A stretch of 41,757 bases of DNA from a virus, in the IMG/VR virus record IMGVR_UViG_3300014060_000002, positions 1-41,757 of that record. One strand, given 5' to 3'. Under the pieces are notes generated by a model. It was not told where the DNA came from, did no database searches, and was given only the letters and a program-made list of their open reading frames with translations. The translations under genes and the position numbers were made by a program. Positions within the stretch are counted from its first letter, which is position 1; the number at the start of each line of letters is the position of its first letter. Of the stretch, positions 7,539-31,665 are shown in pieces.

Positions 7539-8180
7539 GTGGCATGTATTCACACTATATATGTATACATATTAGCTTATTTATGGTATAACACTGTATA
7601 CATACAAAAGGACTATAAAATCGGAAATATCAGAATAGACACACAATCACAGAACAGGCTACAGGAATTATCAGAATGTACTGGTGTGTTCATGGCAGCA
7701 ATGTTGAAAGAGTTAATAAGTGATGGGTATGTTAGTAGGGCAATGCATCCTAAGTATAAGAGGCTAGATGAACAGCACACATTGCTATATAAAGTATACA
7801 AAATAACATTCGAAAGTGGTAAAGTTTATATAGGAATGACTAAGACATTATACACTAGAATGCAACAACACACTAATAGGTTTAGCGCAACTGATTTAAT
7901 AAAAGACGTAGAAGTACTTCTAAATACAGATGATGTAATGGAAGCATCCGCATTTGAGCTATTGACTATAAGTAAACACATTACTGAAACCACTTATAAT
8001 AAAGAGGGCGCAATCCCTTACTATACACAATATGTACAACAGAAAGCGGAACCGGCTCATAGTGAAATATTTCTAGAGTTGCAGGACATCCATAATCAAC
8101 AACAATTACGTAAAACCAAACAGAAGCAAATGCACAAATTAACCAAGAAGGTAACAAATGAATCTACAAACATTAGCTAA
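7539..8180 (+). CDS. Ribbon-helix-helix plus GIY-YIG domain protein
   Basis: The N-terminal part from about K27 (KIGNIRIDTQSQNRLQEL, then FMAAMLKELISDGY) has the strand-helix-helix layout of ribbon-helix-helix DNA-binding domains. It is followed by a GIY-YIG-type core: VYKITFESGKVYIGMTKTLYTRMQQH. The fold cleaves DNA in homing and repair nucleases; this copy might be a mobile or regulatory nuclease. The start is uncertain. A clear ribosome-binding site AAGGA (7608-7612) is followed by no ATG, GTG or TTG in frame. The only canonical start that retains the RHH domain is GTG 7539, whose first ~25 residues look non-coding. ATG 7692 would remove most of the RHH domain. Initiation may use a rare codon near 7617-7620, or a start base may have been lost. 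Confidence 0.68.
   Translation: MACIHTIYVYILAYLWYNTVYIQKDYKIGNIRIDTQSQNRLQELSECTGVFMAAMLKELISDGYVSRAMHPKYKRLDEQHTLLYKVYKITFESGKVYIGMTKTLYTRMQQHTNRFSATDLIKDVEVLLNTDDVMEASAFELLTISKHITETTYNKEGAIPYYTQYVQQKAEPAHSEIFLELQDIHNQQQLRKTKQKQMHKLTKKVTNESTNIS
7559..7572. promoter_or_regulatory. Perfect 14-bp palindrome, possible operator
   Basis: ATATGTATACATAT reads the same on both strands and lies upstream of the GIY-YIG cluster. Its core ATGTATACAT recurs at 32776-32785 in a minus-strand gap, so it may be a protein-binding site rather than chance AT-rich sequence. Confidence 0.35.
7587..7592 (+). promoter_or_regulatory. Candidate -10 box (TATAAC)
   Basis: The context TTATGGTATAAC resembles the ATGGTATAAT boxes found in minus-strand late gaps (29361, 38829). 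No good -35 is visible. It would serve the GIY-YIG gene cluster. Confidence 0.3.
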
Positions 8181-10808: not shown

Positions 10809-10995
10809 GATACTTACACAATACAAAGAGGCTATCAAACAGATAACATCTCTAACCAGTCAGCTAACTAAAGCCAATGCACGAATCGAATCGTTAGAAG
10901 CGCAACTAGCCGAAGAAGTTGAAGATTGGAGCATCACTCCCACCTCTAAACAAGTTGGTCATACTATCAATTGGGCTGAGTCTTCTACCGAGTGA
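10801..10995 (+). CDS. Short coiled-coil protein, 64 residues
   Basis: The first ~40 residues form a clear heptad pattern (YKEAIKQITSLTSQLTKANA and on to LEAQLAEE), which argues for genuine coding. Start TTG 10801, with AGGGA upstream. The final 25 residues overlap the 3' end of the convergent 1435-residue virion gene on the other strand by 90 bases. Function unknown; the coiled coil suggests oligomerisation or pairing with the membrane protein encoded just upstream. Confidence 0.55.
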   Translation: MDKILTQYKEAIKQITSLTSQLTKANARIESLEAQLAEEVEDWSITPTSKQVGHTINWAESSTE

Positions 10996-13900
10996 TTGAA
11001 ATATATTTGAATGATATATTCCGGCATCAGGGGACAATCCAACCTTCTGAGCGGCTACATCCATTAGTACCTTGAATGTATTCTTTCGTAGTCGATTTAT
11101 CTGTACTCTCTGGATATTAGCCCAGTATTTCCAGAACGCTTCTGGTCCCATTCTATCTAACCATTGCACGAACTTTGAGTTTATTACCTTTGAGTAGTTG
11201 ATGAAATTTTCCTTAACATCACTCATAATCTCAGCTTCAGGGATTCCTTTCGCAATACCATGCCAATAAGTAGCAGCTCTAAAGTGGAAGTCACTCTCTT
11301 GAGTTACTCCTACCATGAATCTACCTAGTGCTGACTTCTTAGTTAGGAATACTGTCTGGACAACTTCATGCAGTAATGTTCCTTGAGGTACAACTTTTAT
11401 AACTTGCTTCTCAATTGCATTGCTAACCACATTATTATCATCTTCTCTTAACGATACGCCCTCAACTACCGATTGGAATAATCCAGCGTCCATTAATGGT
11501 TTCAATGGGTTGGCATTCATGCTACTAATTGTATCTGCACGTAATCTCTTGTACTTACCTCGCTCATTACCTTCAGTACTAGCAATTAATCTTTCGTATC
11601 TATGCTGTAGAACTTCATCAGCTTTCCACTGTTTTAAACTCTTTCTACTTAATGATAAGTTATCAATCGCTTGTCTTGGACTCATTCCAGAGTACACTAA
11701 GAACTTAGCATTACTCAGTATGTTCCCATATATAGTCGATGGCATCTTAACTACTACGTTACTTTTTAGTACAGCAACAAATGCTTTGAAGTAGTTCTCA
11801 GCTAGTCGTACGTTTCTATCAACCTTAGCGGATACCTTAAGAGGTATTTTACCTATCTTCTTTATATCCATAATACTTGGCTCATTATATGCGAATAGCT
11901 GGTTTATTAAATCTCTACGTACATATAATTCACGTCTTGGCTTAATATCCCGCTTATCTCTAATGTTCTCGTCCTTATTACTCTTCCAGTCCTCTTCTCT
12001 ATTTTTCTCAATTATGTAGTTACGTGCATCAGGAGGAAGTAGTCCCCATAACTCCTCACCCTCCGTCTTGAATCCATATTTACCTTTATCCTCTAACTTC
12101 AGCGTACCGTGCTTGTACGCTGCAACTCTTTCCTCATCAGTCATATCAAATTCTTTAGGCTGAATCTTTATGTACAAGTGTGCATTGTTTTTGTACATAT
12201 CACTACTAGTATCACGTTCCGCACTATCTTTCCTAATTATATCTATTAGGTTTCTATTCTGCTCATTAGTCATTGTCATTGTGCCAACTTGCCCGAATGA
12301 TCGCCCTAACTTCTCAACCCCATTCACACTCATATCTAACTTACTAACCTTGTCTTCTTTACTAATAACATATCTGAAGTCTTGTATATCCCCTAATGGT
12401 GAGTACACTGGTTGCATGCTCACATCACCTTTGTTCCTGTATACATCTATAGCTTTCTTCTTCTCTTTAGCTATCACGTCCCAAAGTGCTTTGTCCTTTA
12501 GATGTGGATTTGACATCCTAACCTTATCACTTAGTAGTAATCCTGGAATATTACGTCTTTGCAAACTTACTGCACCATCCACACGTTTCCCTATACCAGC
12601 ATTGTTACTATAGAACATGCCATAGGCTGTCTTATCAAAGTCGCCTAGAGCTATCTCCATACGTTTCACGAATGCGTAGCCTTGTGCTTCCATATCGACT
12701 CTATTATACATAGGAGCATACTGTATATCTTTGTTAGGGTCTAGTCGGTCATTAGTCTGCCCTTTAACGAAGTTCTCATGCTCCCCACCTGCTTCCATCT
12801 CTTCTTCGGTACTTCTAATCATACCTCTTGCAGTTTCCATATAGTTTCTTACACCATCTGGATCTTGCTCAAGTAACTCGGCTAACTCGGCACGCCCAGC
12901 AGCTTCTTTCAACGCGTATAGTGTTATTAGCTTATCAATTACTTGCTCTCTATCACTATATGGATTACCAATTCCCTCAGGGAACGACTGGGCATGACCA
13001 TACATATTAACTATGTTTCTAGCATTTGATCGCAACCCGGTACCAGTTACCATGAACTGTGCGACTGATTTTGCTTCACGCTGCCACATCTCGCTAGCAT
13101 ACTCCCCAACTTTAGCTAATTCGCCTACTATCTTAGTTATCTCTGCATCAATTACATCATCACTATTAACTAATCTAGTCAATCCATCAATGCCTATATC
13201 TAATCCAACTGACTGTAAATCAATAGATAGTACAGCACTTTCTAGCGCTTCTCTATACTTCTTATTTTTCGTATCATTGATCTTTATCTTAGTGAACCCA
13301 TTTACTATGTCTTCTAGTGTACCTTCAAAGTTCTTCTCACGCAATCTATCTATATGTGCTCTGAACTGCATAGTCATATCCGCCGCTTGTACCAACGTAG
13401 TACGTCCCGTAACGAAGTCAGCCATTACCGCGGCAGCAAATGACCCCTCGCCCAATCCCATTTGCTGTAATAACTTACTTTGTACATTAGCTAACCCTTC
13501 ATTATTTATCGTACGCTTCATTACTTTATTCATATGACGTATATTCTTCAGTGTAGTAGCGGCTTTGTACATTTGCTTGATGTATCCATCAGTCGGTTTA
13601 GGAGCATTCTTAGCTAGTGCTTCTCCCAGCTTATTTACGTATATAGCTGCTTCCATCCTACGCCCAGCATCTACTTCTTCAGCAACCCATTCACGTATAA
13701 ACTCTGACTTGTATGCCATCTGTATAACTGGATCATTACTTAGTGACATAGCAGTTAGCCCTGGTGTTTCTCGTATTATCTTATCTATCTCCGCTTTAGT
13801 GTGCTTACTACGTGGTGATATAGTACCCGTATCCTCTCCTACTGTCTTCTCTAGTATCCAATCAACTGGTTTACCTAATAATGCATCTAGTTTATCTGTC

Positions 13901-15213
13901 TGCTTATTGACCATGCCCATTATCTTTTCATCTAATGGCATACCCTGCATCTGAGTAGCTTTGCTAGCATATCTATCCTGTACGGCAGTCATTGCATACA
14001 CCAACTTAGTAGTTTCTTCTAGGAGATTCTCACCTTTGATCTTCTTAGCTTTAGTTACAAATATTTGGAATGCATTCCATATCCATCTACTTAGCGTTTC
14101 TAATAGGTTTTCACCGTCTACCTTCTCTCTTAGCACGTTCTCTGGTAACTTTTGACTAAGTGCATAACCTAGTGCTTTGTTAGTCATTGCATGTGCCATG
14201 AACTCCTGTAGTCTAGCATCAGCATCAGCTACTGTCTGTATCTCACTATTTGTACCAAATATATAATCATATCTCGCTTGGGCCTTCTGCTTCTCTATGT
14301 TAGTGTATACACCTTTGTGCTCTGGCATGAAATCTTCTACAGTTACTACTTTGCTAGCATACTTGTACAGTCCACGTATCTGCAATTTTAATGCCTGGCC
14401 AACAGTCTTGTCAGTAGTATGGAATATCCAATCTAATGCAGCATGTACTAGCTCGTGCGTCATTGCTTCTTCATTTGTCATAGTGAACTTATTTCTAGCT
14501 TCTTCACCTAGACTACCTCTGATTAATCTGATCTTGTTATCAGTTGCATTAGGATTGAATTCGCCTATTGGTTCTACTATACTAGCTACTTTATCTTTAG
14601 TTACTAGTATGTTCATACCTGCTATGGTCTTCGATAGTCTTTGTAGCTCTGTAGTTACACCTTTTAGTGCTTCACTATGCTCTGCATCCCAGTCACCACC
14701 TAGTGCTTCTTGATCAGCTTTCTGCATTGCTAGTTGTATGTTATGCACTGTATCATTAGTCGTATCTGCATCCATGAATGCTCTATCTATGTATTCTTGT
14801 GTTGTCCCACTTTGATTGTATAGTGTTGTGCCATCTACTAATCCATGCTCAGCATTTTCTTTGACCATCCTATCTAGTACACCTTTTGTAAAGTTGTACT
14901 TACCATTGCCTATATTCAGCCCATAGCTATCGACATCTATCTTGTCGACCCCATTCTTCGTAGTAGGGTTAACATTAATACTATAACCATAAGTAGTTTT
15001 AGTTACTCCTAGTATGTCCACGATCTTATGAAACTTCTCTCCATTAGCTTTATAACCATACGCGGTCTCACGTACAACCCTTGCGGAATCAGCTGCATCA
15101 TTGTACATTTGTATTTTGAGTTGTTTATACTCTTCTACCCTGTCATCTAGTTCTTTACCTGATAGTCCTTCGCCAGCTAATATGTTTCTTATTTTATCTA
15201 TGTTACAATTCAT
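10906..15213 (-). CDS. Giant virion/ejected protein with N-terminal zincin metallopeptidase domain
   Basis: A 1435-residue protein at the end of the late operon, probably carried in the capsid and injected. The N-terminal ~400 residues hold a gluzincin-like site, H253-E-L-V-H257 followed by E337 in QEFMAHAM, resembling the MPTase domains of phage polyvalent proteins. The remaining ~1000 residues are mostly helical with no recognised enzyme motif. The start MNCNIDKI mirrors the MACEIDKT start of the neighbouring 374-residue zincin, so the two N-terminal regions are probably paralogous. Start ATG 15213 follows AAGGA. The protease could mature virion proteins or cleave host factors. The 3' end overlaps the convergent left-arm operon. 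Confidence 0.85.
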   Translation of the reverse strand: MNCNIDKIRNILAGEGLSGKELDDRVEEYKQLKIQMYNDAADSARVVRETAYGYKANGEKFHKIVDILGVTKTTYGYSINVNPTTKNGVDKIDVDSYGLNIGNGKYNFTKGVLDRMVKENAEHGLVDGTTLYNQSGTTQEYIDRAFMDADTTNDTVHNIQLAMQKADQEALGGDWDAEHSEALKGVTTELQRLSKTIAGMNILVTKDKVASIVEPIGEFNPNATDNKIRLIRGSLGEEARNKFTMTNEEAMTHELVHAALDWIFHTTDKTVGQALKLQIRGLYKYASKVVTVEDFMPEHKGVYTNIEKQKAQARYDYIFGTNSEIQTVADADARLQEFMAHAMTNKALGYALSQKLPENVLREKVDGENLLETLSRWIWNAFQIFVTKAKKIKGENLLEETTKLVYAMTAVQDRYASKATQMQGMPLDEKIMGMVNKQTDKLDALLGKPVDWILEKTVGEDTGTISPRSKHTKAEIDKIIRETPGLTAMSLSNDPVIQMAYKSEFIREWVAEEVDAGRRMEAAIYVNKLGEALAKNAPKPTDGYIKQMYKAATTLKNIRHMNKVMKRTINNEGLANVQSKLLQQMGLGEGSFAAAVMADFVTGRTTLVQAADMTMQFRAHIDRLREKNFEGTLEDIVNGFTKIKINDTKNKKYREALESAVLSIDLQSVGLDIGIDGLTRLVNSDDVIDAEITKIVGELAKVGEYASEMWQREAKSVAQFMVTGTGLRSNARNIVNMYGHAQSFPEGIGNPYSDREQVIDKLITLYALKEAAGRAELAELLEQDPDGVRNYMETARGMIRSTEEEMEAGGEHENFVKGQTNDRLDPNKDIQYAPMYNRVDMEAQGYAFVKRMEIALGDFDKTAYGMFYSNNAGIGKRVDGAVSLQRRNIPGLLLSDKVRMSNPHLKDKALWDVIAKEKKKAIDVYRNKGDVSMQPVYSPLGDIQDFRYVISKEDKVSKLDMSVNGVEKLGRSFGQVGTMTMTNEQNRNLIDIIRKDSAERDTSSDMYKNNAHLYIKIQPKEFDMTDEERVAAYKHGTLKLEDKGKYGFKTEGEELWGLLPPDARNYIIEKNREEDWKSNKDENIRDKRDIKPRRELYVRRDLINQLFAYNEPSIMDIKKIGKIPLKVSAKVDRNVRLAENYFKAFVAVLKSNVVVKMPSTIYGNILSNAKFLVYSGMSPRQAIDNLSLSRKSLKQWKADEVLQHRYERLIASTEGNERGKYKRLRADTISSMNANPLKPLMDAGLFQSVVEGVSLREDDNNVVSNAIEKQVIKVVPQGTLLHEVVQTVFLTKKSALGRFMVGVTQESDFHFRAATYWHGIAKGIPEAEIMSDVKENFINYSKVINSKFVQWLDRMGPEAFWKYWANIQRVQINRLRKNTFKVLMDVAAQKVGLSPDAGIYHSNIFQSLGRRLSPIDSMTNLFRGGSDAPIFNFFG

Positions 15214-15222
15214 TATTAGTCC

Positions 15223-16347
15223 TTATTTACATGCATCTTTGATTGCTTGAATAGCTTCAGTGGATAGTCCTCTATTGAAGTACTCTTCATTTGTGACGAT
15301 TACATCTAATTTACCTAGTAGTGCCTCTAGTTCTGGATAACTTCGCTTATCTTGCGCTTGTTGTGCTTCTACCATTGATATGTAACCATCTAGCATGTAC
15401 TCGAATGCATTAGTCAATTCTTTACCCTTCAATCCTAGCATCTTTAGTAATGTGTCTACTAATGTCTCGAACACATTACTTAATTTATCTAACTTAGCAG
15501 TAGGTTCTAACTTTATTAGCTCGCCTATTAGCTGTGGGTTACTTAATGCCTCCGCTAGAAATTCATCTGTACTAGTTTTCCAGTAGTTGAAGTTAACAGT
15601 CTTAGTTATATTAGCTTTAGCTAGCTCAAATAACTCATTAACTCTTACTGTTGCAGGATGATCTGGGAATTCTCGCATAAACTCAAATGAGCCAGCATGT
15701 ATTAGTTCATGCACGACTGTATGATCATTCTGATTACTACGTAGCACGCGAGATACCATATCAACATATTTCTTAGATAGCTCTGGTGTACTCTCTACCG
15801 CTGGTAAAGCACCTAATTCTACTGCTTTGACTAGCCTACTATCTACCTCTGTCTTAATCTGCTCACCACTTATTCTATTGAATTGAATTATCTTGGAATA
15901 CGGTAAGTATTCCGCAGCAACAGCTGGTTGTCCCATAATTATATTTTTAATTGCAACTGCAGATAGCTCAGTAGATCTCTTAATTTCTGGACCTATCAAT
16001 TTCATTACTACCTTACGCATACCCTTATAGTACTGTCCCGTATCTAACCCACTACCTTCATACTTACCAAATACTTCTACTTTGAGGCTTTTTAACTGCT
16101 TATAATCTTGTGGTTTCTCAGTTAGTGGTGTTTTATTATATGGTTTCACACCCTCAACTACTCTAGCTGTGTCGACTTTAGCCAGTTGTTCCACTATACT
16201 TTCATTACTTGTGTTATCTCGCAGGGCAACCAACGATTCCAGCTTGCCCAGTGCAGCAGTTACTAACTTACGCTGCACATCAGTAGTCTTAGATCTGCTT
16301 AGTATGGTTTTGAATTGTTCTATTGTTTTATCTATTTCACATGCCAT
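15223..16347 (-). CDS. Zincin-like metallopeptidase, virion-associated candidate
   Basis: A 374-residue protein with an intact HExxH motif (H213-E-L-I-H217, context VVHELIHAG) and a downstream glutamate in DEFLAEALSNPQL (E262, possible third zinc ligand). A helical C-terminal part follows. It sits between the virion RNA polymerase gene and the 1435-residue protein with a related domain, and starts only three bases after the polymerase stop. The spacing and shared M-x-C-x-I-D-K start suggest duplication of an ancestral domain. Zincins with this HELxHA...EFxAEA pattern are frequent in phage polyvalent proteins, where they are thought to act on proteins after injection; the target here is unknown. 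Confidence 0.82.
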   Translation of the reverse strand: MACEIDKTIEQFKTILSRSKTTDVQRKLVTAALGKLESLVALRDNTSNESIVEQLAKVDTARVVEGVKPYNKTPLTEKPQDYKQLKSLKVEVFGKYEGSGLDTGQYYKGMRKVVMKLIGPEIKRSTELSAVAIKNIIMGQPAVAAEYLPYSKIIQFNRISGEQIKTEVDSRLVKAVELGALPAVESTPELSKKYVDMVSRVLRSNQNDHTVVHELIHAGSFEFMREFPDHPATVRVNELFELAKANITKTVNFNYWKTSTDEFLAEALSNPQLIGELIKLEPTAKLDKLSNVFETLVDTLLKMLGLKGKELTNAFEYMLDGYISMVEAQQAQDKRSYPELEALLGKLDVIVTNEEYFNRGLSTEAIQAIKDACK

Positions 16348-16350
16348 GGA

Positions 16351-19300
16351 TTAGCATCCTTTTAGTATTTTATTCAGTACACCAAGTATACCTGCAGTTC
16401 CATCAGCTTCTTTAGTAGCATTGAACTCTGTATGTATAGCTTCTATATCAGATAGTATACCTTCTTTAGTCTTAGCCTTTGCTGGTTCTACAGGTTCTGG
16501 TATATTGAACTCGTCGCTCAACTTAACCTCTGGAACTTGTTTCTCGTACGCTTTTGCTTCTGTAATTACACTAGCACCATCCACTGCTAACGCTGAATGT
16601 TCTATGTATAGTGACTTATTATTGAGCAGCTCGTATCGACCATCTTCACTGAGTCTTTGTAGGTCACGCATGCTAGTGTATATAGCAGTTGCAGTCTGCA
16701 ACTCAGCTTCATTGAAGTTCTCAACGAATTCACCTAGTCCGGCCTCCCTTAGGGCTTCTAATTGTATTGACTGCCAGCCTTTGTCATCACTAACCAGCGC
16801 TTCTACTATCTCACGCATATCGTCGCGGATAGCTGTAGCTACTTGAGCATTTACATTCTTAGCACTCAGTGCCCTGTTCAGGTTGAACTCGACTGCTTCG
16901 GATTTATACCTGCTATCTAACTCTTTTAGCCCCTCTATACCTATGGTATTCATTGTGCTATTCATGCTACTTAGTATTTCCGTTGTTAAGCTATATGTTT
17001 CGGCTAGTTTAGCTACAGCTTCATTATATGCTCTTGTTCCTGGAACTGCATTAACTACATCTAGTATGTTAGCATCATGTACACCTATACTCTCTATCTT
17101 TGATAGTACAGCTGCTTGTATCATTGCATCCATGAAGTGCACTGTTATTGGAGCACCGCCGGTGTATGACTCAACCATTTTGTATAATGTAGTACTTGCA
17201 TTGAGCGTATTTCCATCACCTACACCATATATCGTACCCTGTGCCTGATCATTGGTGTCCATACTAGTATCATATTGTCCTTTACCGCGCTTAGCTATTA
17301 GCCCTATATTTGAACTATTATCAGCAAATGCCATCTTGAATATTGGTAGCACATTTACTAAGTCTTGCATTACCTCTTTAATCTCACTATTAGTAAGGGA
17401 TCTTGGGCTACCATTTATGTATGCACCTAGCTCTTCTAACTTAGCATCCATTCTAGCTCTTATCATTGGCTCAGCAGCTCTGAACATCATTTGGAATGAG
17501 CTATTGATTGTTTTAGTAGCTTTAATGAAATCCCCATACTGCTCGTTGAACATCTCAGTCAATGGGTCTTTTAGTACAGCTATTACCACATCTTTAACCA
17601 GTTGTATGTTCTTAGCACCCATATCGAATTCTAGCATCCCTTTATCTTTGTGTGCTTGTTTGAGCCTATGGATTACACTGTTATGTACACCAGCCACTTC
17701 CATTATACGTACTAACTCCTGTCTAGCACCTGTATCAGTATGCGCTTTAGTCAGTAGTTTGTATATATTAGCCTCGGCTTCTCGAGCCTTACTATCAATT
17801 ATGGTAGTTATAGCTGATCCATAATTTAATGTCATGAACGGCTTCTTCATAAATCCTCTAGATATGCCTTTATCCAAGTTTTCACCTAATAAGTCCATTA
17901 CTACATTAACTCTCACAATAGCTGTCGAATTTACCATAGTATCTTTTAGTTTAGTAGTAGTCAACTCAGCAGGTACTTCATATGAGTCTTTATTACCTTT
18001 AGTACTTCTCCATTCACCATATGCCTGTTTCTCACTTTCTTTTAGCACTCCACCTCTAGCCAGCTCTCTATACACTTTGCCCATGTCTAGGCTGTTCCCC
18101 CCATTAGTGAATACTGGCATTTGTAGTATCTTCAGTATGTACCCAGACGTGATTGCATCTGTCTCTATAGTCATTCCGCTATAGAACTTAGTTCCAGCAT
18201 CTCTAGATTCTTTGTATGCTATGTACTCAACTAGTCCAAGCAATGCTAACTCAGGTTCACCGGCCATGCCATTGTTTACCATATACTCGAACCCAACTTT
18301 AACTTTGTTGTCTGGAGAAGCATCTAGTATTTTATCTAATGCATTAGTAACTCTCTGTAACTTCTCCATTGACTTCTCATAGTTTTGCTTATCAATGCTT
18401 ACGTCCATAGCTTGCGCTATACCTAACTTGAATACCTGCTCTTCTACACTGTCTTTAGCTATTAGCACCTTACGTTTCTCTACGGAATGTCTATGCAGCT
18501 TTTTATCTTGCCAGTTGAATGTGTTTGACTTAATACCAAATCTATTATTACTCATTATGTACCATTTAGCATACATAGGTGCGTTATTTCGTTTCTCACT
18601 CTCTAACAGTGCTTCTTGGTAATACTTTAGTTGATCTTGTATACCTAAGTTCTTACCATGTGTAGCAGCTCTATCTTCTTTGTGTACTGTAGCATCGACA
18701 CCCTCAGTATAACCCATCACTTTAGCAAAGTACCCAATACCTACTTCTTTTAATCCATCAGTGAATCTGTTATTGAATACACGACCATCTGCATTTTGTT
18801 TTTCAATTGCATCTCTCTGCATCTCAGTAGTAGTCGCGTCTAGCTCGCCAGTTAGCCCTTCATTAAGTATAGAATCTCTATCTACTTTAGTATCTTCTGC
18901 ACTCCAGTATACTCCAGTACTTACTCGTATATCAGTATTTAGTATATTCTTAGCTATATCCTGACTACCTGCAACTATACTACTATTGATTACCCCATTA
19001 CCTGTAGTAGTATTTGCTATTTCATCATTGAGCGTTCCATCTTGTACACCACTAGTTACTTTGTATGTAGCTATTGTAGCACCTACAGAAGCTGTATAAC
19101 CGAATAACTTAGTTTGTAGTACACCTTTCTCTATGGTAACTAACCCAGCTTCTTCAGCGGCCAGCATAGCAAGTAATCCTAGCTCGGTTTTCATATTAGC
19201 TTGCATTAGATCTCTATTCACTACATCCGTCGAACGCTTAGCTTTTAACCCCAAGTAGTCCCATATAGCAGCTCCTAGTGTGTCAGATGCAGTCGGTACT

Positions 19301-20898
19301 GTACCATCTATATCAGCGACTCTAGCCCGTTCCTCTGCAGTGGATTTAGTCTTTGAGTCTATCTGAAGTAATCTATTAGTATCAGCTTCACTTCTAACCT
19401 CAGCACGCATTGGCGCAGCCATTGTACCGAGCCAGTCCACAAACCCTAGCGCTATCGCTGTCTTTACATCTTTGTTAATCTCGAAGTGACTGAGTACTGT
19501 ATTACCATTAGGGACTACTTTAGTTGCAACACTCATCATTAGTCTACTTACGTTCTTGAATCCTTTCCCAAATCTTGGTGCCATTGGGTCGTACGCGATA
19601 TGGTAATCTTCAGTCATTGTAGCTATCTTATCACTACGCTCTAGTGATCCTAGTGCGCTAATCAGCTTACCTACTGTCTCCAGTGTGCTTTTAAGTGGCT
19701 TCAGTTCCTTAGTGTTAAGTGGTTCCAAGTCTTGTAGCAGATCACCTATTACAGTGGTGTCAACACCTTTACCATTGAATGTAAAGTGTGTCCCTAGCCC
19801 ATGATTCTCTGATATGGTTTTAGCCTTCATAGGCACTTTAACCTTAAGAGGATTAGTTGCATTGTACTTTCTAATTACATCCTCTTTACTTTTCATCTTA
19901 TTCGTATCTACTGCGTCTATTAGTTGCCCACCAATTGATGCCTCATATGCTTCTTCTTGCTTTTGTGTGTCTATAGCAACATTGTACGCCTCGATCCGCT
20001 TCTTATTCTTAGTAATATTAGCTTCTAACTCTGCCGTAAATGCTGCCATATTATTTACACTGCGTAAGTCGTCTTTACGTTTAGCTAATCCTTCCACACT
20101 AGTAGCTTCCTTCAACTTCTCCGTAACTTTATTAGTAGCGCTATTCGCTTGTTTGACGGCCACTTCTTCTTGGCGTAATCGTTGTGTGCTATCCGATTGC
20201 TTTCTGCCTTTAATAGTGGCTAACTGTTTATCTAATATTTCCGGTATCCTAGCTAGGTTTTTACGTAGCGCGTCAATCTCATTAGCATATTTATCCTGTA
20301 ATTTCGTAGCCACTAACTGTGCGCTCTTCGCTATACCGTATCTATGGTATGGCACACTCAACTCATGAAGTAACGCTAACTTCATATTGGTATCAGCTTT
20401 AATTGTAGCTAACTCTGCTCGCATTTGTATTATGAGTTCTGACTCTACCTCGGCAGGCTCTACTATTTTTGTAGTTGCTTTATCTTGTCTGCGGCCTTCT
20501 GCGCTCGGCTTAGTAATATTGTCACTAACTTGTTCTCTTCCTTGGCTTGTTGTAGTTCCTGATGTAACTGTTCTGTTTTCTGGTTGTCTTTCATTTTGTT
20601 GTTCTCCTAATTTAGTTTCTGCTATTTGCTCAGCCCTCTTTGATTGTGATAAGCGCTCTACCTCTTGTGGAGTACTATCCTGTATTTGGGAGTCTTCTAA
20701 AGTACGTGAGATCTTGCTAATTAGTTTATCACCGACATACGCTTCTACTGAACTACTAGAATCTGCGGGCTGACTATCAATTTGCATGTCAGCATCTTTA
20801 GCAGTAAGTTGCAGTGCACTGCTAAGTTTCTTAGTTACAGGTAGCTCTGGGTATTTTGCTATGTACTTTATAGCTATCTCTTGTAATGGGCATCGCAT
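16351..20898 (-). CDS. Virion-associated single-subunit RNA polymerase (N4 vRNAP type)
   Basis: A 1515-residue protein containing the three palm motifs of T7/N4-type RNA polymerases in order. Motif A is TDAITSG (D914). Motif B is R1014-x3-K1018-x3-M1022-T-L-N-Y1026-G, with the same spacing as T7 R627/K631/Y639. Motif C is H1274-D1275 in GVHDAN. D914-to-D1275 is about 360 residues, wider than T7 (275) and close to my recollection of the N4 virion enzyme. A degenerate TxxGR-like region lies near residues 780-805. About 600 residues precede the catalytic core, with a charged low-complexity stretch at ~80-160. N4 vRNAP is packaged, injected and transcribes early genes from hairpin promoters on single-stranded DNA; the same is inferred here. 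N4's protein is about 3500 residues, so this one is compact. Start ATG 20898 follows GAAGGA. Confidence 0.92.
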   Translation of the reverse strand: MRCPLQEIAIKYIAKYPELPVTKKLSSALQLTAKDADMQIDSQPADSSSSVEAYVGDKLISKISRTLEDSQIQDSTPQEVERLSQSKRAEQIAETKLGEQQNERQPENRTVTSGTTTSQGREQVSDNITKPSAEGRRQDKATTKIVEPAEVESELIIQMRAELATIKADTNMKLALLHELSVPYHRYGIAKSAQLVATKLQDKYANEIDALRKNLARIPEILDKQLATIKGRKQSDSTQRLRQEEVAVKQANSATNKVTEKLKEATSVEGLAKRKDDLRSVNNMAAFTAELEANITKNKKRIEAYNVAIDTQKQEEAYEASIGGQLIDAVDTNKMKSKEDVIRKYNATNPLKVKVPMKAKTISENHGLGTHFTFNGKGVDTTVIGDLLQDLEPLNTKELKPLKSTLETVGKLISALGSLERSDKIATMTEDYHIAYDPMAPRFGKGFKNVSRLMMSVATKVVPNGNTVLSHFEINKDVKTAIALGFVDWLGTMAAPMRAEVRSEADTNRLLQIDSKTKSTAEERARVADIDGTVPTASDTLGAAIWDYLGLKAKRSTDVVNRDLMQANMKTELGLLAMLAAEEAGLVTIEKGVLQTKLFGYTASVGATIATYKVTSGVQDGTLNDEIANTTTGNGVINSSIVAGSQDIAKNILNTDIRVSTGVYWSAEDTKVDRDSILNEGLTGELDATTTEMQRDAIEKQNADGRVFNNRFTDGLKEVGIGYFAKVMGYTEGVDATVHKEDRAATHGKNLGIQDQLKYYQEALLESEKRNNAPMYAKWYIMSNNRFGIKSNTFNWQDKKLHRHSVEKRKVLIAKDSVEEQVFKLGIAQAMDVSIDKQNYEKSMEKLQRVTNALDKILDASPDNKVKVGFEYMVNNGMAGEPELALLGLVEYIAYKESRDAGTKFYSGMTIETDAITSGYILKILQMPVFTNGGNSLDMGKVYRELARGGVLKESEKQAYGEWRSTKGNKDSYEVPAELTTTKLKDTMVNSTAIVRVNVVMDLLGENLDKGISRGFMKKPFMTLNYGSAITTIIDSKAREAEANIYKLLTKAHTDTGARQELVRIMEVAGVHNSVIHRLKQAHKDKGMLEFDMGAKNIQLVKDVVIAVLKDPLTEMFNEQYGDFIKATKTINSSFQMMFRAAEPMIRARMDAKLEELGAYINGSPRSLTNSEIKEVMQDLVNVLPIFKMAFADNSSNIGLIAKRGKGQYDTSMDTNDQAQGTIYGVGDGNTLNASTTLYKMVESYTGGAPITVHFMDAMIQAAVLSKIESIGVHDANILDVVNAVPGTRAYNEAVAKLAETYSLTTEILSSMNSTMNTIGIEGLKELDSRYKSEAVEFNLNRALSAKNVNAQVATAIRDDMREIVEALVSDDKGWQSIQLEALREAGLGEFVENFNEAELQTATAIYTSMRDLQRLSEDGRYELLNNKSLYIEHSALAVDGASVITEAKAYEKQVPEVKLSDEFNIPEPVEPAKAKTKEGILSDIEAIHTEFNATKEADGTAGILGVLNKILKGC

Positions 20899-20899
20899 A

Positions 20900-23800
20900 T
20901 TAACATCCTTCTAAGTTTATATCATTTGCTTTGGCAAAGTTTCTAAATGCCACTTTCAATTTACCATCTTTGCCTAGCATTATACCTTTTAGTGCCTTAT
21001 TAATAGCTGCATCTACTACTTCAGTATTACGCTCAGTAATAGAGGTTATCTCTTGAGCCGGTTCATTAACAGGTATTTGTTTAGCACCCTCAGATACAAG
21101 TGTGCTGCCTTCTAACTCTGCTATCCTATTGCGTATACCCTCAATCTTAGTCTGGTTAGCAGACGCTAGTGATGAATCATCTATAGTTTCTCTATCTAAT
21201 CTTGATATCTCACTTTCTAGCTCATCGATAGCTCGCGCTGTGGTTACACCTACTGTGCTATCATCATTTGTAGTGTACGCAGATGATGGCTCACCACTGA
21301 CTGTCTCAGCATAATCAGCAGACTGTTCTTTGCTTTGCTTTGTACTATCCTGTTGTACTGTATCGTTACTAACAGGAGAGGTATCACTTTCTTCCGAAGC
21401 ATCAGTAGTACCTATGTACCTAGCGCCTACTTTGCTTAGTATGCCAAATTCTTTTTGCTGTGGAATTAATAGCCCTTTCTCGGAACGACCATCATACACT
21501 TTACCATCCCCTAGCTCAACGGAAGGGGCCTCCCCAGTTTGGTCCCATGTAGCTAGCTTCTCATCATACTCTTTCTTAGCGGTCTCTAATTTATCTAATT
21601 TTACTTTCTGAGTATCTATAAAGTGATTTAGCCTCTGCTTGAAGTACTCATACAACTTACTATCGGGGTCTGTATTCTCTAGTGCGTCTATGTACGTTAG
21701 TAGTCCAGTTCGTTCTTGCCCATCTACTCTACCACCATAGAACTTGAGTGCATGACTCTGTACAGCACTCATGCCTGATTCTTTTGATACACTAACACGT
21801 TCAGTGCCTGGTGACTGTGTTGGTAGCCCTGCTATTTCCTTCTCTACACTTAATCTAAATAGTGCTTTTTCATCTGGAGTGTCTTTACTTTGCTCAGCAA
21901 CTACATCAGCCTCTATTTCACCAAGTGGTCTGCTGTTTAGTGCTGTACCTTTACCACGAGCCATTGCAGCTTTCATTGCTACGGCATTAGCTAAGCCATC
22001 TACTACACTATCACGTGTTTTAGCGGTCACAGAATCAGGCATACTATCTAGTTCAGTATTCAGTGCAGTTATGTGATGATCAACCCATGCATGGTGTGCT
22101 TCAGTGGCAGGTATTTCCCCACTAAGTACCTTCTTCACACCTTCATGCTCAGAAGCGCTCATTATGTCTTGTAAACTGCTCTCCGCCATAGCACTAACTA
22201 CATAATCACCATCTGACTGTGAAGCTGGCGTCAGTGTAGATCTTAGTTTAGATGGTATTTCTTTTAATGTGTTAGCGTCAGGAATATATTTTGATGCAAC
22301 GTCGATAGCCTTCATTCCAGGACCTGATGCTGCCCCGCCAGCTGCAGCTTTGTAGACTTGTTTAATGTACTTATCTTGCAATGCTCTATCTAGATCTTGC
22401 GTGCCACCAAGAACTGTTGTAGCCTCAGTTGCTCCTTCTTGTGTGAATTCTGTACCAATAAGAGTTGCCAGCTTTGAAGTACCCTTAAGTGCTACTTGTG
22501 CGACTGTAGTAGGCACTTTAGCTATTAACGAGTCAATGAGTGCGTTAGTTTTAGCAGCTAGGGCGGTGCCACCTGATTTATCAAATAATAACTTTGCTTG
22601 AGCCATATCCATTAACGTACCTAAGGCGCTGAGTGCTGCTATATTCCTAAGAGCTTCACCTTCAGGTTTTAATCCATACTCTTTCTCATATATTTTTGCA
22701 GCCTCTGTAGCGTTATCGCTCCACGTACCGAGTACAGCTGGTACAGCTACAATACCTTTAGCGGCCATAGCTTTACTAAAAGCAAAACTTTCTGATGCCA
22801 GCTCAACAGCTCCTACAGGGTTAGTTACTATTGCCCCTAACATACCAGTTATGTAGTTTTCAGTATCATAGGCATCTCCAAACTCTTTTTGCAGTTTTTT
22901 AACCCTAGTATCATCAAAGCCTATGTACTTTTTGTCAAGTGCATTAATAACAGCAGAACCATCTGCCATAGTATCGATTACAGACTTCACAACTTTACTA
23001 TATGTAGGATTTTCTTTAGCGAATTCACTTATAGGCTCTAGATAATCACCACCTAATAACTCGTATAACTTCTTAGGGGCTTCCGAAATAGATGCAGCTA
23101 CGCTAGCCATGCCATGGGCAATACCTTTTCCAATATTGGCAGATTTATCTATAAATGTGGCATCCTCTTTCTCATTTATCCATGAACCAGTACGAAGTGC
23201 TTCTATTGCTTTCTCCTGTATACTCGGCTCACTCTTGTTACCTAGCTGGGAGGTATCCGCTACTATAGTATCTGGTTCATATAGCATGCCTTGCTTAGCT
23301 AGCTCTGCATTTTGCACGTATGTGTTACCTTCATCTCCTACATATTGTACCTGTCTCCCAAATGACTCTTCTCCTGTATCATACACACTAACAGGGACAT
23401 TTAATGGTAGCTCTTTTGAGCCAAGTATCAATGGATCATTCTTTGCATCATACTTAATTGGCCCAGGAACCCACTCTTTTCCATCTTTACCTACAGGCCT
23501 GCCCATCATATCATATAGCGTTTGTAGTCGTGCAGTCTCACTTAACTTATACACTTCTTCAGGTGTGGTCACACCATATTGCTGCATTTGCTTTGCTATT
23601 CTGGCTTGTTCTTTACCTGACTCACTGAACTTACCATGGTACGATTCTGGAGCATCTACCCAACCTGCCGAGTTGTTAGGCATTGTTGGGTCACCAGCAA
23701 GCCTATTACCACTAGCTGCACCTATCATCGTTAAACTATCAGCATCTGGAATTGATTCAAGCATCGCAGGTGAATACTTGGACTTGTCTATAGCCTCTAT

Positions 23801-24092: not shown

Positions 24093-25781
24093 TCACTTAA
24101 CCAGAGGAGCACTCGGGTTAGTGTTATATAGGACATCATGCGCATAGGCATTCTTTTCTTTACGCTCCAGTCTTCCCCTTTCATTAGAAGAAAGATACCT
24201 ACGAGCATCTTTATTCAATTCCATGTACCTTTTTAGTATATCGGCAGGTAAGTTGCGTGTATTAATAAGTCCCTTGTTTATGCCATCTATTAGCCCAGAC
24301 CATAACGCTTTATTAGACTCTGACATAGGCCCTAAACCACTACGTGTTACAGAACTATTCAATCTTTCTGCAAGTTTACGTTTTTGTAATTGAGTGCGTA
24401 AGGCTTCTAACTGATCGTACTCCTTAACAGTTTCTGGTTTTCCTATAGAAGCAATTTGTTTTGCTATTGCCACTGTAGTAGCGTCAGACCCCTTTTTAAT
24501 TGCACTGGTATCTACGTTTAATTGGTCAACCGACTGTTCTGGTGTAAGTGCGCCACCATTAGCGTTTAGACTCTCCGTAGTCACTGTCTGGTTAGAATCC
24601 TTTTTAGTAATTACTTGTGGCGTCCTCATACGTGGAACAGCATTCTCCGTAGCCCGCTGAACATACTCAGCGAATAGTGGTGCTAGTTTTTCTCTTGCTT
24701 GCATATCCATACGCTCATTGTATCCCATTCCCAGTTTAGTTAACTTGTCTTGGGCCTGTAACTTTTGAGCCTCTAGTCTATGTGCCATCTCTCGTCGCGC
24801 ATCCACACCAGATAGATCAAGCGGTCTAGTAGTGGTACCTTTCCCAGACTGCCCAACAAGTTCTGCAAGTCTTTTACCCATTTGATTGATCTCATCTTTA
24901 CCTAATTTCTTCTTGGTCAACGTAAATTCTGTAGCTACTTGATTTAGTAATGCTGGAGTTAGTCCACCTGTATTAGCAGCTGCAGTTAGCATTTTTCGCA
25001 TTTCGGGGGCATTATTTTCATCCGTTAGGTTGTACCAAGCAGTACCTTGACCACTTATCAGGCTATCAGCCAACTCCTTAGACTTTTGGAGGTCGAACTT
25101 AGCAGATTTACCTCCTCCGCTAGAAGTGTATGTTTCACCATCTTCACCAACTACAGTGCCGCCAACCCTATTCATCAAAGATGCTTTTTTATCTATAGCT
25201 CCTAGCGAGTATTCTGCTCTCTTACGCTCTATATCATTTATTTCTTTTCCGTACTGTGCACGTAATGCATCCTCTTTAGCTTGTTGAGCAGCTTGAGCTA
25301 CCACAGCTGCCTCAACCCCTTTCATGGATGTTCCATATTGTCTAGTTAACCTATTATACATCTCTGGTTGAGACTCTAATTGGTCCATAGCATGTGACCC
25401 TAGTTCCTCTTGCGCCTTTGAACGTCTTTTGTACTCAGCAGTTCCCTTGGTTAACCCTTCCAATGATATAGAGTCTAAGAATGTTTGCCCATCAGGGCTG
25501 GCGACTGCATTTGTTAACCAATTATCTCTTGCTTGTGGTCCTTTCGCAGCACCTGCAAATATATTCTTTGTTATCGCTTCTTCGGCCACACCTTTATTGT
25601 ATATATCGGTAGCTCTATCATCCAGTACCTTGGTTCTAGCTCGCTCTAAGTCTCGTACATTTCGTTTGTCCGCAGCAACTTGGTTAGCTGCCATGATGTT
25701 ACCTATATTATCTAGCGCGCTTTGTAGTCCAGCACCAGTATTACTTGGGGCCATTCTACTAAAATCCTGTCTTAATGCCAT
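24093..25781 (-). CDS. Internal virion/ejected protein candidate, 562 residues
   Basis: A 562-residue, predominantly helical protein without membrane segments, rich in Ala, Gln, Lys and Arg. It begins MALRQDFSRMAPSNTGAGLQ and continues with long amphipathic helices. In position (after a Gly-rich gp14-like gene, before the giant genes) and composition it resembles the gp15-type internal core or ejection proteins of podoviruses. No enzyme motif is visible. Start ATG 25781, with AAGGATA upstream. Confidence 0.72.
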   Translation of the reverse strand: MALRQDFSRMAPSNTGAGLQSALDNIGNIMAANQVAADKRNVRDLERARTKVLDDRATDIYNKGVAEEAITKNIFAGAAKGPQARDNWLTNAVASPDGQTFLDSISLEGLTKGTAEYKRRSKAQEELGSHAMDQLESQPEMYNRLTRQYGTSMKGVEAAVVAQAAQQAKEDALRAQYGKEINDIERKRAEYSLGAIDKKASLMNRVGGTVVGEDGETYTSSGGGKSAKFDLQKSKELADSLISGQGTAWYNLTDENNAPEMRKMLTAAANTGGLTPALLNQVATEFTLTKKKLGKDEINQMGKRLAELVGQSGKGTTTRPLDLSGVDARREMAHRLEAQKLQAQDKLTKLGMGYNERMDMQAREKLAPLFAEYVQRATENAVPRMRTPQVITKKDSNQTVTTESLNANGGALTPEQSVDQLNVDTSAIKKGSDATTVAIAKQIASIGKPETVKEYDQLEALRTQLQKRKLAERLNSSVTRSGLGPMSESNKALWSGLIDGINKGLINTRNLPADILKRYMELNKDARRYLSSNERGRLERKEKNAYAHDVLYNTNPSAPLVK

Positions 25782-25805: not shown

Positions 25806-26405
25806 TTATAGTTTACCATACCTATCACCAAACACCTTGTTATACACATCAGTACCTGCTGCATCATTCTTAACACTTTTATCCATTACGTATTTATTTG
25901 CAGCTATTTGTTGGTCTACTAAGGCTCTATTCTTCTTAGCTGTTTTCTCATTATCTAAGTAGCTGAGTACGCCCAGTCCGAGTTGCCCAGCACCTAGTGC
26001 TAGTCCCCCATAACCTTCCATTCCCCACCCTGGCCCTTTATCTGTGGTACTACCTCTAAATCCGCCACCTACTTGATTACCAGCAGCATCAAATTGCGCA
26101 CCGCCTATCTTTGTTGCAAGTTCTGGGTTGGCCTCTCCCCAGGTAAATACCTGGTCACCTGTAGCAAGTTTATCTCCAAAGTACAAGTTACCATCTTTCA
26201 TACTAGCAACACCTAAGTCCTGCACTGCAGAGTTAGGAGCACCAGCGCCATATATAGGAGTGCTTCCTAGTTGCTTAATATTGCTAATAGAGGCAATATC
26301 CCTACGTACACCATCAGTCAGCGTATTAACTGAGGGACTCCATGGGTCCACTATAGCAGCTGCACCCTCGTAAGTTTTACTTTTTAGGAAGTCTTCTGAG
26401 TTCAT
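25806..26405 (-). CDS. Gly-rich internal virion protein candidate (gp14-like layout)
   Basis: A 199-residue protein. The centre is Gly-rich and moderately hydrophobic (GYGGLALGAGQLGLGVLSYL, ~residues 132-151). It is followed by a charged helix (DNEKTAKKNRALVDQQIAAN) and a tail containing DKSVKNDAAGTDVYNKVFGDR. A short apolar glycine-zipper-like segment before a coiled helix is the layout of T7 gp14-type ejection proteins, which insert in the outer membrane. Similarity is in layout and genome position only. Starts at ATG 26405 with AAAGGATA upstream. Confidence 0.68.
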   Translation of the reverse strand: MNSEDFLKSKTYEGAAAIVDPWSPSVNTLTDGVRRDIASISNIKQLGSTPIYGAGAPNSAVQDLGVASMKDGNLYFGDKLATGDQVFTWGEANPELATKIGGAQFDAAGNQVGGGFRGSTTDKGPGWGMEGYGGLALGAGQLGLGVLSYLDNEKTAKKNRALVDQQIAANKYVMDKSVKNDAAGTDVYNKVFGDRYGKL

Positions 26406-29391: not shown

Positions 29392-31665
29392 CTATAGGTT
29401 TGAGAGTAAAGCTCTATTGTCAGTTACATTAGCTGGTTGGATCGTAGCATACACACTTCTTATTACCACCTTTAGGGATCCTTCCCCAGATAATGTAAAA
29501 GCCCCCGTGAATGATCTAATATACACGGAGTCAGTGTAATCCCCATTATTCCTACTATAACTGGTAGTACGTGAGAAAGTAATTCCTGCCACCTCTCCTC
29601 CCCTACCGTTTATCCTGCCAGTGCCAAGTAGCGTACTGCCAATATATATCGCAACATATATAGCATTCGGCGTCCCCCTGTAACTCGTAAGAATACACAA
29701 TAGAATAGGGCTGTATATACTTATACTAGTTCCTATGAGTGATGATGCTGCTCTGATAGGAGTTCCGTACGTACTAACAACTGACGTGGCATTGTACGCA
29801 TAGAGATTAGTGTAACTTACCATCTCATTATAAATGGGGAGGGTATTAGTAAAGAACAGCGTACCTATGGCAACTGTTGAGTACCCAGCATCAGTAACTA
29901 CCTGCAAATCACGTACCCTAATTGTAGAACCAACGAAATCAGTAGACGTAATAGTACCACCATTAATGCGTGCTCCAGTAATAGTACTACCATTAATGCA
30001 TGCTCCAGTAATAGTGCCAGTAGCAGTTATATTCTCAGCAAATACCCTATTAGCGAACACAGCATCTGTAGTAATCTTACCACCATCAATTGTAGTGATA
30101 TTGGTATTGATAGCGGTAGCCACATCAGCTGGCAGCACCTTACTATCAGCTATTTCTTTTAATTTTGTACTAATAGCATTAAGAATCAACTGTCTTTCTG
30201 AGTAGTACATTCTAAATGAACCTCTAAAGGCGCTGCGGTTTATAGGTGTGTTAGTCGTCAAGTTTACATCTGCCAGCCATGTAGGAACTATAGGGTTACT
30301 AACTAACCACGCAACTCCCGCATTTAAGTAAGTACCTAAGTACTCTAAGGCCTCTCTATAACCTATAGCACTTACTGCTAGACCTGCTGCCTGGTCGGCT
30401 ATTAATACTTGCTCAGTAACTAATATTTCCCACTCTTTACGTACTAAAGTTTTTTCTCCTGGATCTAGTACACTATCTGAAGCTATGTCAGTTAACTGAG
30501 TAAGTGCTGCTATAGCATTTGCTTTAGCATCTGCGGCTTCTGTCTGTGCTGCTGCGACACTAGATATCGTAGGTATATATGTACCAGAATCACTAATACT
30601 ACTAAATGTTACTTTACCATTAAAATTCACATCACTACCAACAATGCTGAATGGTGTATGTCCTGTAAGACCATCGCTTATACTGAAGTTTGTAGCTTTT
30701 ATCTGAAAATTACTAACTGCATTACTACCATCTGAGAACCCCCATCCAGTGATACTTCCATCAGGCCCTGTTATAAGTTTACTAGAACTTGCAGACCACG
30801 CATTAGCCTCAACAGCCGCTCGTTCAACAGTAGTGAGCGCAACAGATACCTCATTTACACTAGCACTTAGTGTGTCTAAGTATCCTGCAGATGCAATACC
30901 TGTACCATCAGGTGTTATCCCAATTGTCGTATATCCCTCAGACAACTTCGTAGCTGTTGCAGCTATACCTGTATTTACATCATTTACACTAGCACTTAGT
31001 GTGTCTAAGTATCCTGCAGATGCAATACCTGTACCATCAGGTGTTATCCCAATTGTCGTATATCCATCATACAACTTCGTAGCTGTTGCAACTGTACCTG
31101 TATTTACATCAGTTAGCGTGGATGTGAGTAGCTCAACTTGCGTAGCACTAGCTAAGTTATTACTTGCATACACATCAGTTACATCTAATGCCCATGCCTC
31201 CACCTGGTCCTTAATTACCCCTAATGCATCAGTCTTTACTGCTTTAGCTAGCTCAGGAGATACAATTGTATCATACTGCTCTATGGCTGCTGCTATATCA
31301 CCTTGTAGTTCACTCTTAACTGTAGTTAAGTATTGTGATTGACTTACCACCTCATTCTGTACACTGGCAATACTTTGATTTACACCTAGCTCTATACTTT
31401 GAACTAGTACGTACAAGTCATTCACTAGTTGGCTAATATTAAGCGTACCAGCTGTTACTTGCGCTATTATTGCATCTGTAAGCCATGTAGGTACCCCATT
31501 GTGGATATTACCACTGTACACACCACCTGTACTCAGTACGTATGTGTTAGTCGATACCTCAGCTATTTTAGGAGTAGCTACATTTACATCAGTGGTGGTT
31601 ACCTCAGTAGTTACCTCAGTGGTAGCACCACTTGTAACTAATGCGCTATCTGCAACCACTTCCAT
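29392..31665 (-). CDS. J-like tail tip / receptor-binding fibre protein
   Basis: A 757-residue fibre-type protein. An N-terminal Thr/Val repeat (TEVTTEVTTTDV) is followed by a helical region. Two near-identical 43-residue tandem repeats come next (residues ~186-271, unit beginning DVNTG and ending LSASVN). A helical segment around 395-420 contains DPGEKTLVRKEWEILV, a pattern I know from lambda J-like tip proteins. A region ending KITTDAVFANRVFAENITA is also typical of their C-terminal part. A short repeat series (TGACINGSTITGARINGGTI) leads into a strand-rich C-terminal domain that is the best candidate for receptor contact. The layout is that of a trimeric fibre. The stop lies 58 bases before the next gene. 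Which receptor it binds cannot be told. Confidence 0.78.
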   Translation of the reverse strand: MEVVADSALVTSGATTEVTTEVTTTDVNVATPKIAEVSTNTYVLSTGGVYSGNIHNGVPTWLTDAIIAQVTAGTLNISQLVNDLYVLVQSIELGVNQSIASVQNEVVSQSQYLTTVKSELQGDIAAAIEQYDTIVSPELAKAVKTDALGVIKDQVEAWALDVTDVYASNNLASATQVELLTSTLTDVNTGTVATATKLYDGYTTIGITPDGTGIASAGYLDTLSASVNDVNTGIAATATKLSEGYTTIGITPDGTGIASAGYLDTLSASVNEVSVALTTVERAAVEANAWSASSSKLITGPDGSITGWGFSDGSNAVSNFQIKATNFSISDGLTGHTPFSIVGSDVNFNGKVTFSSISDSGTYIPTISSVAAAQTEAADAKANAIAALTQLTDIASDSVLDPGEKTLVRKEWEILVTEQVLIADQAAGLAVSAIGYREALEYLGTYLNAGVAWLVSNPIVPTWLADVNLTTNTPINRSAFRGSFRMYYSERQLILNAISTKLKEIADSKVLPADVATAINTNITTIDGGKITTDAVFANRVFAENITATGTITGACINGSTITGARINGGTITSTDFVGSTIRVRDLQVVTDAGYSTVAIGTLFFTNTLPIYNEMVSYTNLYAYNATSVVSTYGTPIRAASSLIGTSISIYSPILLCILTSYRGTPNAIYVAIYIGSTLLGTGRINGRGGEVAGITFSRTTSYSRNNGDYTDSVYIRSFTGAFTLSGEGSLKVVIRSVYATIQPANVTDNRALLSNL
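29941..30030. repeat. Short ~30-bp tandem repeats in the fibre gene
   Basis: ACCATTAATG-C-TGCTCCAGTAATAGT-type units repeat about every 30 bases and encode the TITGA-INGGT series, a beta-helix or triple-stranded fibre rung pattern. Confidence 0.55.
30852..31109. repeat. Two tandem 129-bp repeats in the fibre gene
   Basis: Copy one spans 30852-30980 and copy two 30981-31109. The offset is exactly 129 bases (43 codons), with only about four differences seen by eye. A further stretch beyond 31109 starts similarly but diverges quickly. The in-frame unit length keeps the fibre open and suggests recent duplication by recombination or slippage. Confidence 0.9.

Follow-up and report, generated by a model that had tools for sequence, protein, structure and literature searches.

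Is the 1515-residue protein encoded at positions 16351-20898 of a viral contig a small virion RNA polymerase (vRNAP) in its own right, or one part of something larger? The contig, IMG/VR record IMGVR_UViG_3300014060_000002, was analysed over its whole length of 41,757 nucleotides (nt; hereafter the window), and a preliminary description, made from the sequence alone, had presented this gene as a compact vRNAP, not half as long as that of N4, and a minimal example of a packaged polymerase. We find that the protein is only the catalytic segment of a giant enzyme, whose remaining parts are encoded by three adjoining genes. What is new here is that the exceptions to the cysteine-free rule of vRNAPs fall precisely, and nearly exclusively, at the breaks in the chain. 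For this enzyme of four proteins, we consider it highly likely that the terminal cysteine pairs bridge the breaks as interchain disulfides, and that the pieces are packaged and ejected as a string and then freed by reduction.

A catalytic piece and its neighbours

The open reading frame (ORF) is real and has the 1515 residues reported for it; it lies on the minus strand, which had been left unstated, and runs from an ATG start to a TAA stop, while the plus strand across 16351-20898 is full of stops. The translation contains the polymerase motifs at the residues given in the preliminary description: TDAITSG starts at 913, MTLNYG at 1022 and GVHDAN at 1272, which places D914 in motif A, R1014, K1018 and Y1026 in motif B, and D1275 in motif C. 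R786, within NNRFG, is likely the fifth catalytic-motif residue, the arginine of the T/DxxGR motif. These motifs are not a product of chance, as all 22 relatives in the alignment share R786, D914, R1014, K1018, Y1026 and D1275.

A Pfam search with this piece returned no family, and as a single-sequence phmmer query it found no real relative in the PDB, so profiles were needed. With these, the protein matches PHROG 2206, 'virion RNA polymerase' (phrog_2206), at 6e-83, and the profile of the RNA polymerase (RNAP) family matches the crystal structure of N4 vRNAP (PDB 2po4) at 2e-51. An AlphaFold2 model of residues 330-1515 (1,186 residues; mean predicted local distance difference test, pLDDT, 79.7; predicted template modelling score, pTM, 0.78) has N4 mini-vRNAP as its top PDB match (E=1e-29, template modelling score about 0.61-0.66), with the mitochondrial and T7 RNAPs ranking below it. 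By sequence and by fold, the protein therefore belongs to the N4-type vRNAP family, which has a T7-like single-subunit fold; this supports the assignment made in the preliminary description.

Two features of this family are nevertheless missing from the window: a single chain of about 3,000-3,800 residues and the complete absence of cysteine. The slot that in N4 holds gp50, one gene of 3,500 residues, is filled by four abutting minus-strand genes, which encode an N-terminal domain (NTD) piece of 1038 residues, the RNAP piece of 1515, an extra HExxH piece of 374 and a C-terminal domain (CTD) piece of 1435, 4,362 residues in sum, with gaps of 1, 3 and 9 nt between them (Table 1). The CTD piece matches positions 2521-3028 of phrog_2206, its C-terminal part, and the profile of its family matches residues 2673-3449 of the N4 gp50 structure (9pnr; E about 1e-71). 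An NTD-family profile found no relative in the PDB; the NTD piece is identified by its position and by its collinearity (E=2e-76) with residues 171-838 of a chain at locus L103 in which NTD and RNAP are unbroken, a single protein of 2,393 residues with which the NTD and RNAP pieces together are collinear. The RNAP and CTD pieces, in turn, are collinear with one 4,252-residue protein of L122, a contig from a Campylobacteraceae metagenome-assembled genome (MAG). Because the neighbours match the rest of a vRNAP and are collinear with the chains of L103 and L122, the enzyme is split and not compact. The stand-alone gene of the preliminary description thus survives as a separate ORF, but the three genes adjoining it are the rest of the enzyme; with the 1435-residue neighbour as its C-terminal part, the descriptions as compact, as under half as large as the N4 enzyme and as a minimal example fall away.

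The same four ORFs are found in three IMG/VR contigs (the window, L002/L010 and L003/L011). The breaks sit at or near flexible linkers of the ancestral single chain, and break 1 of the window falls in a low-complexity stretch. Reassignment of a stop codon can be set aside, since TAA, TAG and TGA each end genes in the window. The 374-residue piece has counterparts by position of 360 residues in L103 and 224 residues in L018. HExxH motifs, reading HELIHA and HELVHA, occur in this piece and in the CTD piece, and the 374-residue piece may be a duplicated zincin-like domain; a fold prediction from two sequences was unusable (pLDDT 37).

Cysteines at the breaks

The four pieces contain six cysteines in their 4,362 residues, one at each inner end and none elsewhere, and both outer ends of the series are free of them. 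The sole cysteine of the NTD piece is its last residue, C1038; the RNAP piece has only C3 and C1515, again the last residue; the 374-residue piece has only C3 and the second last residue, C373; and the CTD piece has only C3. Under random placement, such a pattern has a chance of about 8e-17, and the remaining late genes of the window encode no terminal cysteines. The two departures of this enzyme from its family, no single giant chain and the presence of cysteine, come together in a way that accounts for both.

Does this hold beyond the window? About 90 vRNAP loci were collected in scans of IMG/VR, one GTDB genome set and GenBank phages, and a curated set comprised 31 split systems with 45 breaks and 124,209 residues; a break was taken to comply when a cysteine lay within 10 residues of the end on each side. 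As called, 44 of the 45 breaks have cysteines on both sides, and the 45th (L028) does after its start is moved to an internal MACK. Breaks account for 90 of the 94 cysteines in these systems, with 4 elsewhere, and the cysteine count is twice the break count in 27 of 31. The N-terminal cysteine is mostly residue 3 or 4 (range 2 to 11), the C-terminal one lies within the last five residues, and the codons vary between TGT and TGC. The flanking residues are not conserved: most often G, E or K precedes the C-terminal cysteine and T, N, K or E follows the N-terminal one, and neither His, Asp nor a further Cys is conserved around them. The cysteines themselves are constant: C3 is kept by all 19 CTD pieces compared, where the following 150 residues average 28% conservation, and C1038 by all 10 NTD pieces compared. 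The single-chain vRNAPs of N4 (0 in 3,500 residues), LIT1, JA-1, pVco-5 and Littlefix have no cysteine, and among 40 single-chain ORFs with 2,950 residues or more, taken for comparison, only one (L044) has a genuine cysteine, three more having them through misassigned starts only.

The pieces need not be neighbours for the rule to hold. Matching cysteines are found on the NTD gene and the RNAP-CTD gene of L026, L027, L053, L083 and L086 even though the two are kilobases apart and separated by other genes; all of these loci but L083 supply the 4 of 45 curated pairs that are non-adjacent, with genes 2.4-5.8 kb apart. The partner pieces of L026 and L083 and the third piece of L033 were located because the cysteine rule predicted them. 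CTD-based scans gave no additional split systems. Two loci of unusual build may be mentioned here. In L014 (8924-17389), the RNAP piece has 2,821 residues, nearly twice the usual length, with a large extra region and an internal cysteine at 371; L033 (13177-18828) is a multi-break system whose middle piece of 1,883 residues has its own HExxH at 1128; a CTD piece that begins with MKC comes next.

Several apparent exceptions were set aside. L039, L056, L078 and L083 show frameshifts without a start codon, L041 and L115 an in-frame stop; starts were misassigned in L062, L077 and L087, and the true starts are internal in L022, L028, L112 and L124. The stop of L115, at about 1105-1107, comes right before motif C (IDGA*MGSII...IHDA) and is an error or unusual. 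In Shigella phage pSb-1 (L139, 294-11082), the vRNAP is annotated as three genes and has 0 cysteines. Two frameshifts interrupt the coding sequence, one of which adjoins the HExxH motif; this looks like a case of frameshifts, either sequencing errors or true mutations, and not a real split.

The distribution of breaks speaks to their history. L103, the nearest relative of the window, differs from it in break 1 and in both cysteines of that break: its chain is unbroken there and has no cysteine at that place. L122, whose 4,252-residue chain has no cysteine at all, is nested within a split clade. On a tree of 79 RNAP-domain sequences, with changes counted as gain or loss alike, the NTD/RNAP break shows at least 8 state changes and the RNAP/CTD break at least 2; these counts are approximate, as the tree is a quick one and several of its branches are long.

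A proposed disulfide-linked chain and its alternatives

Why should cysteines occur almost only where the chain is interrupted? Their absence from vRNAPs, also remarked on in PMC10747016, has been explained as avoiding disulfides during ejection (PMC3715699, PMC2784036, PMC3915230). Injection of the N4 enzyme is reported to require the NTD, and its encapsidation the CTD (PMC4496689, citing unpublished data); on this view, a polymerase piece without its neighbours would enter neither the virion nor the host. With disordered linkers at 907-1006 and 2102-2123, the N4 chain is believed to traverse the tail like beads on a string, and its CTD inhibits the polymerase (PMC12633501). Interchain disulfides are known in phage virions from the portal-vertex and tail proteins of crAss001 (PMC10172136); those link structural proteins, whereas the ones of the window would join an ejected enzyme head to tail.

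We propose that the cysteine at the C-terminal tip of an upstream piece would bond with that at the N-terminal tip of the next, giving a head-to-tail chain in which stoichiometry and order are preserved. By its kinship with the N4 enzyme and its gene position, the vRNAP of the window is presumably packaged and injected and would transcribe from hairpin promoters: the chain would be packaged via its CTD and would pass the tail as one string, NTD first, until the host cytoplasm reduces the links and the polymerase could be freed from its anchor and from the inhibitory CTD. As a general account, in which separately made subunits form a redox-cleavable daisy chain by head-to-tail disulfides, pass the tail and disassemble in the cytoplasm, and in which breaks arose or were lost repeatedly together with their cysteine pairs, we favour this model with some reservation.

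Several points weigh against it. We infer the bond between the pieces from the placement of the cysteines, and assembly occurs in the reducing cytoplasm. No phage-encoded thiol oxidase was found, in searches whose Erv1 query lacked a working control, and among the split clades searched a thioredoxin is present in the AD45 clade only, so the searches do not support the idea that the phages generally encode either enzyme as a helper. With three breaks, mispairing is possible, and a factor enforcing the order may be needed. One extra cysteine each is found in L012, L013, L014 and L067, and the unbroken chain of N4 works without such links. As to the thioredoxin, the AD45-like clade (L127-L132; contigs of L063, L071 and L095) encodes a thioredoxin/glutaredoxin-like protein of ~90 residues, which may serve ribonucleotide reductase, whose genes are also in AD45.

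How do other explanations fare? The pieces could associate non-covalently, with the paired terminal cysteines coordinating a shared metal ion or making another non-disulfide contact. One cysteine on each side of every break would fit this, yet a metal requires more ligands and the unconserved surroundings offer no His, Asp or second Cys, which leaves this explanation unlikely. Disulfides might also form between other partners, either as homodimers of vRNAP copies, several of which are packaged in N4 (4 +/- 1; PMC12633501), or as links to other virion proteins. Such pairings are harder still to credit when the cysteines face each other across breaks and number twice the breaks in 27 of 31 systems, when outer ends never carry one and when intact chains lack both together. 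A complete catalytic domain is present in the 1515-residue protein, and it might act alone as a free-standing compact polymerase. N4 mini-vRNAP, of about 1,100 residues, is indeed active alone in vitro. We hold this to be very improbable, however, given that NTD and CTD genes with matched terminal cysteines are kept adjoining it, and that injection and encapsidation of the N4 enzyme reportedly depend on its NTD and CTD (PMC4496689, citing unpublished data).

The remaining alternatives concern the reality of the breaks and the origin of the cysteine codons. Sequencing or gene-calling errors, or read-through or frameshifting into one chain as proposed for AD45-P1 (PMC10654107), would agree with the two window breaks that are in frame (gaps of 3 and 9 nt), and true frameshift artefacts do exist in some contigs and in pSb-1. 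But the same four ORFs recur across three IMG/VR contigs, and start codons, often with short overlaps, follow each break. Moreover, 31 of the 41 adjacent breaks are out of frame, those of AD45 included, which excludes simple read-through for most of them, and artefactual splits such as that of pSb-1 come without cysteines. With the non-adjacent pairs refuting it in general, we give this explanation very little credence. Could the cysteines be a by-product of translation signals at the junctions, such as a Shine-Dalgarno sequence or a start/stop overlap? AAGGA, a possible ribosome-binding site, precedes the cysteine codon at two window junctions, but the position of the cysteine (-1 to -5; 2 to 11), its codon and the gap all vary, and neighbouring late genes with similar junctions have no terminal cysteine. 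Junction signals, overlap and read-through cannot explain the rule, because it is kept by partners that are not adjacent; the five loci with genes kilobases apart refute a translational by-product, to which we assign next to no probability.

With the disulfide-linked chain as the preferred reading, the absence of cysteine from vRNAPs becomes a rule with explanatory exceptions: cysteine is barred except where a broken chain is re-joined. This suggests that a giant protein bound for ejection needs its parts to remain covalently linked one behind the other, and the breaks offer natural points for probing the passage of a 380-kDa enzyme through a channel of about 35 angstroms. Reduction in the cytoplasm is a possible activation trigger in a family with an inhibitory CTD (PMC12633501). 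The finding also corrects a database habit, as splits have been merged or filtered as errors (PMC10654107), hiding a large part of the group.

Phage affiliation and related systems

Table 1. Features of the vRNAP locus in the window
Feature	Position	Strand	Basis or remark
Gene at N4 gp52 (ejection protein) position, 199 aa, no Cys	25806..26405	-	position only
Gene at N4 gp51 (ejection protein) position, 562 aa, no Cys	24093..25781	-	position only
NTD piece, 1038 aa	20900..24016	-	position; collinearity with L103
C1038 codon, NTD piece (break 1, upstream side)	20903..20905	-	
RNAP (catalytic) piece of split vRNAP, 1515 aa	16351..20898	-	profile, fold, motifs
C3 codon, RNAP piece (break 1, downstream side)	20890..20892	-	
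R786 (NNRFG), likely T/DxxGR-motif arginine	18541..18543	-	alignment
Motif A aspartate D914	18157..18159	-	alignment
Motif B R1014-K1018-Y1026	17821..17859	-	alignment
Motif C aspartate D1275	17074..17076	-	alignment
C1515 codon, RNAP piece (break 2, upstream side)	16354..16356	-	
Extra middle piece, 374 aa, HExxH (zincin-like) motif	15223..16347	-	position
C3 codon, 374-aa piece (break 2, downstream side)	16339..16341	-	
C373 codon, 374-aa piece (break 3, upstream side)	15229..15231	-	
CTD piece, 1435 aa, HExxH at 253	10906..15213	-	profile match
C3 codon, CTD piece (break 3, downstream side)	15205..15207	-	

The window belongs to a late region of N4-like make-up and gave profile matches for the portal (phrog_1216, 7e-147), the major capsid protein (phrog_1357, 3e-49) and a gp57-like protein (phrog_2120, 3e-43). 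It is a fragment, since the same DNA recurs in 39-kb and 101-kb IMG/VR contigs; the 101-kb contig, which carries the same vRNAP, also has a terminase match (2e-80). Where N4 has gp52, gp51 and then the single gp50, the window has genes at the gp52 and gp51 positions and then the four genes of the split enzyme. An N4-like portal, major capsid protein and terminase as well as the N4 gene order are thus all found, as in Schitoviridae. Genomes of this family are 59-80 kb (PMC7650795), a range that the contig with the identical vRNAP, at 101,225 bp, exceeds. Schitoviridae also have a two-subunit RNAPII (gp15/gp16); a single-sequence query with N4 gp16, which may miss relatives, gave 0 matches on the window and its 101-kb relative and matches in 4 of 14 related contigs.

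With N4 gp50 (PDB 2po4, 9pnr), the enzyme shares all catalytic motif residues, an HExxH-bearing CTD, the gp51/gp52 neighbours, the near absence of cysteine and flexible linkers between NTD, RNAP and CTD (PMC12633501). Unlike N4, with its one 3,500-residue chain and 0 cysteines, the window has four proteins, six cysteines at breaks and an extra HExxH piece. Uncultivated relatives from IMG/VR and MAGs (L103, L018, L012-L022, L109, L112, L122 and others) have collinear pieces and follow the same cysteine rule, but with other sets of breaks than the window, down to the one cysteine-free chain of L122; and where the NTD gene lies several genes away, as in the five loci described above, the arrangement differs from the abutting genes seen here.

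A parallel among named phages is offered by Alteromonas phages AD45-P1 to P4 (Efbeekayvirus), which likewise have a split vRNAP with one cysteine per break side, C2493 of a 2495-residue piece and C4 of a 1409-residue piece across a gap of 7 nt; unlike the three breaks of the window, theirs is a single one between RNAP and CTD. The AD45 phages are culturable, with Alteromonas macleodii AD45 as the laboratory host of AD45-P1, which gives direct experimental access. All AD45 GenBank records carry a 'potential frameshift' misc_feature and no annotated vRNAP protein, and in AD45-P3 (L009, 1564-13288) a real two-gene vRNAP lies beneath that feature. PMC10654107 noted two split vRNAPs and concatenated them, discarded proteins of <2,500 residues from its survey, treats the AD45-P1 split as a gene-calling error or read-through and lists pSb-1 as split in three. 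We found no report of the cysteine-at-break pattern in the open-access literature.

Elsewhere in the window, an ORF at 7539-8180 among the early genes has, by eye only, a GIY-YIG-like sequence (VYKITFESGKVYIGMT). At 29392-31665, a probable tail or fibre protein of 757 residues contains an internal near-perfect repeat, GYTTIGITPDGTGIASAGYLDTLSASVN, in 2 copies.

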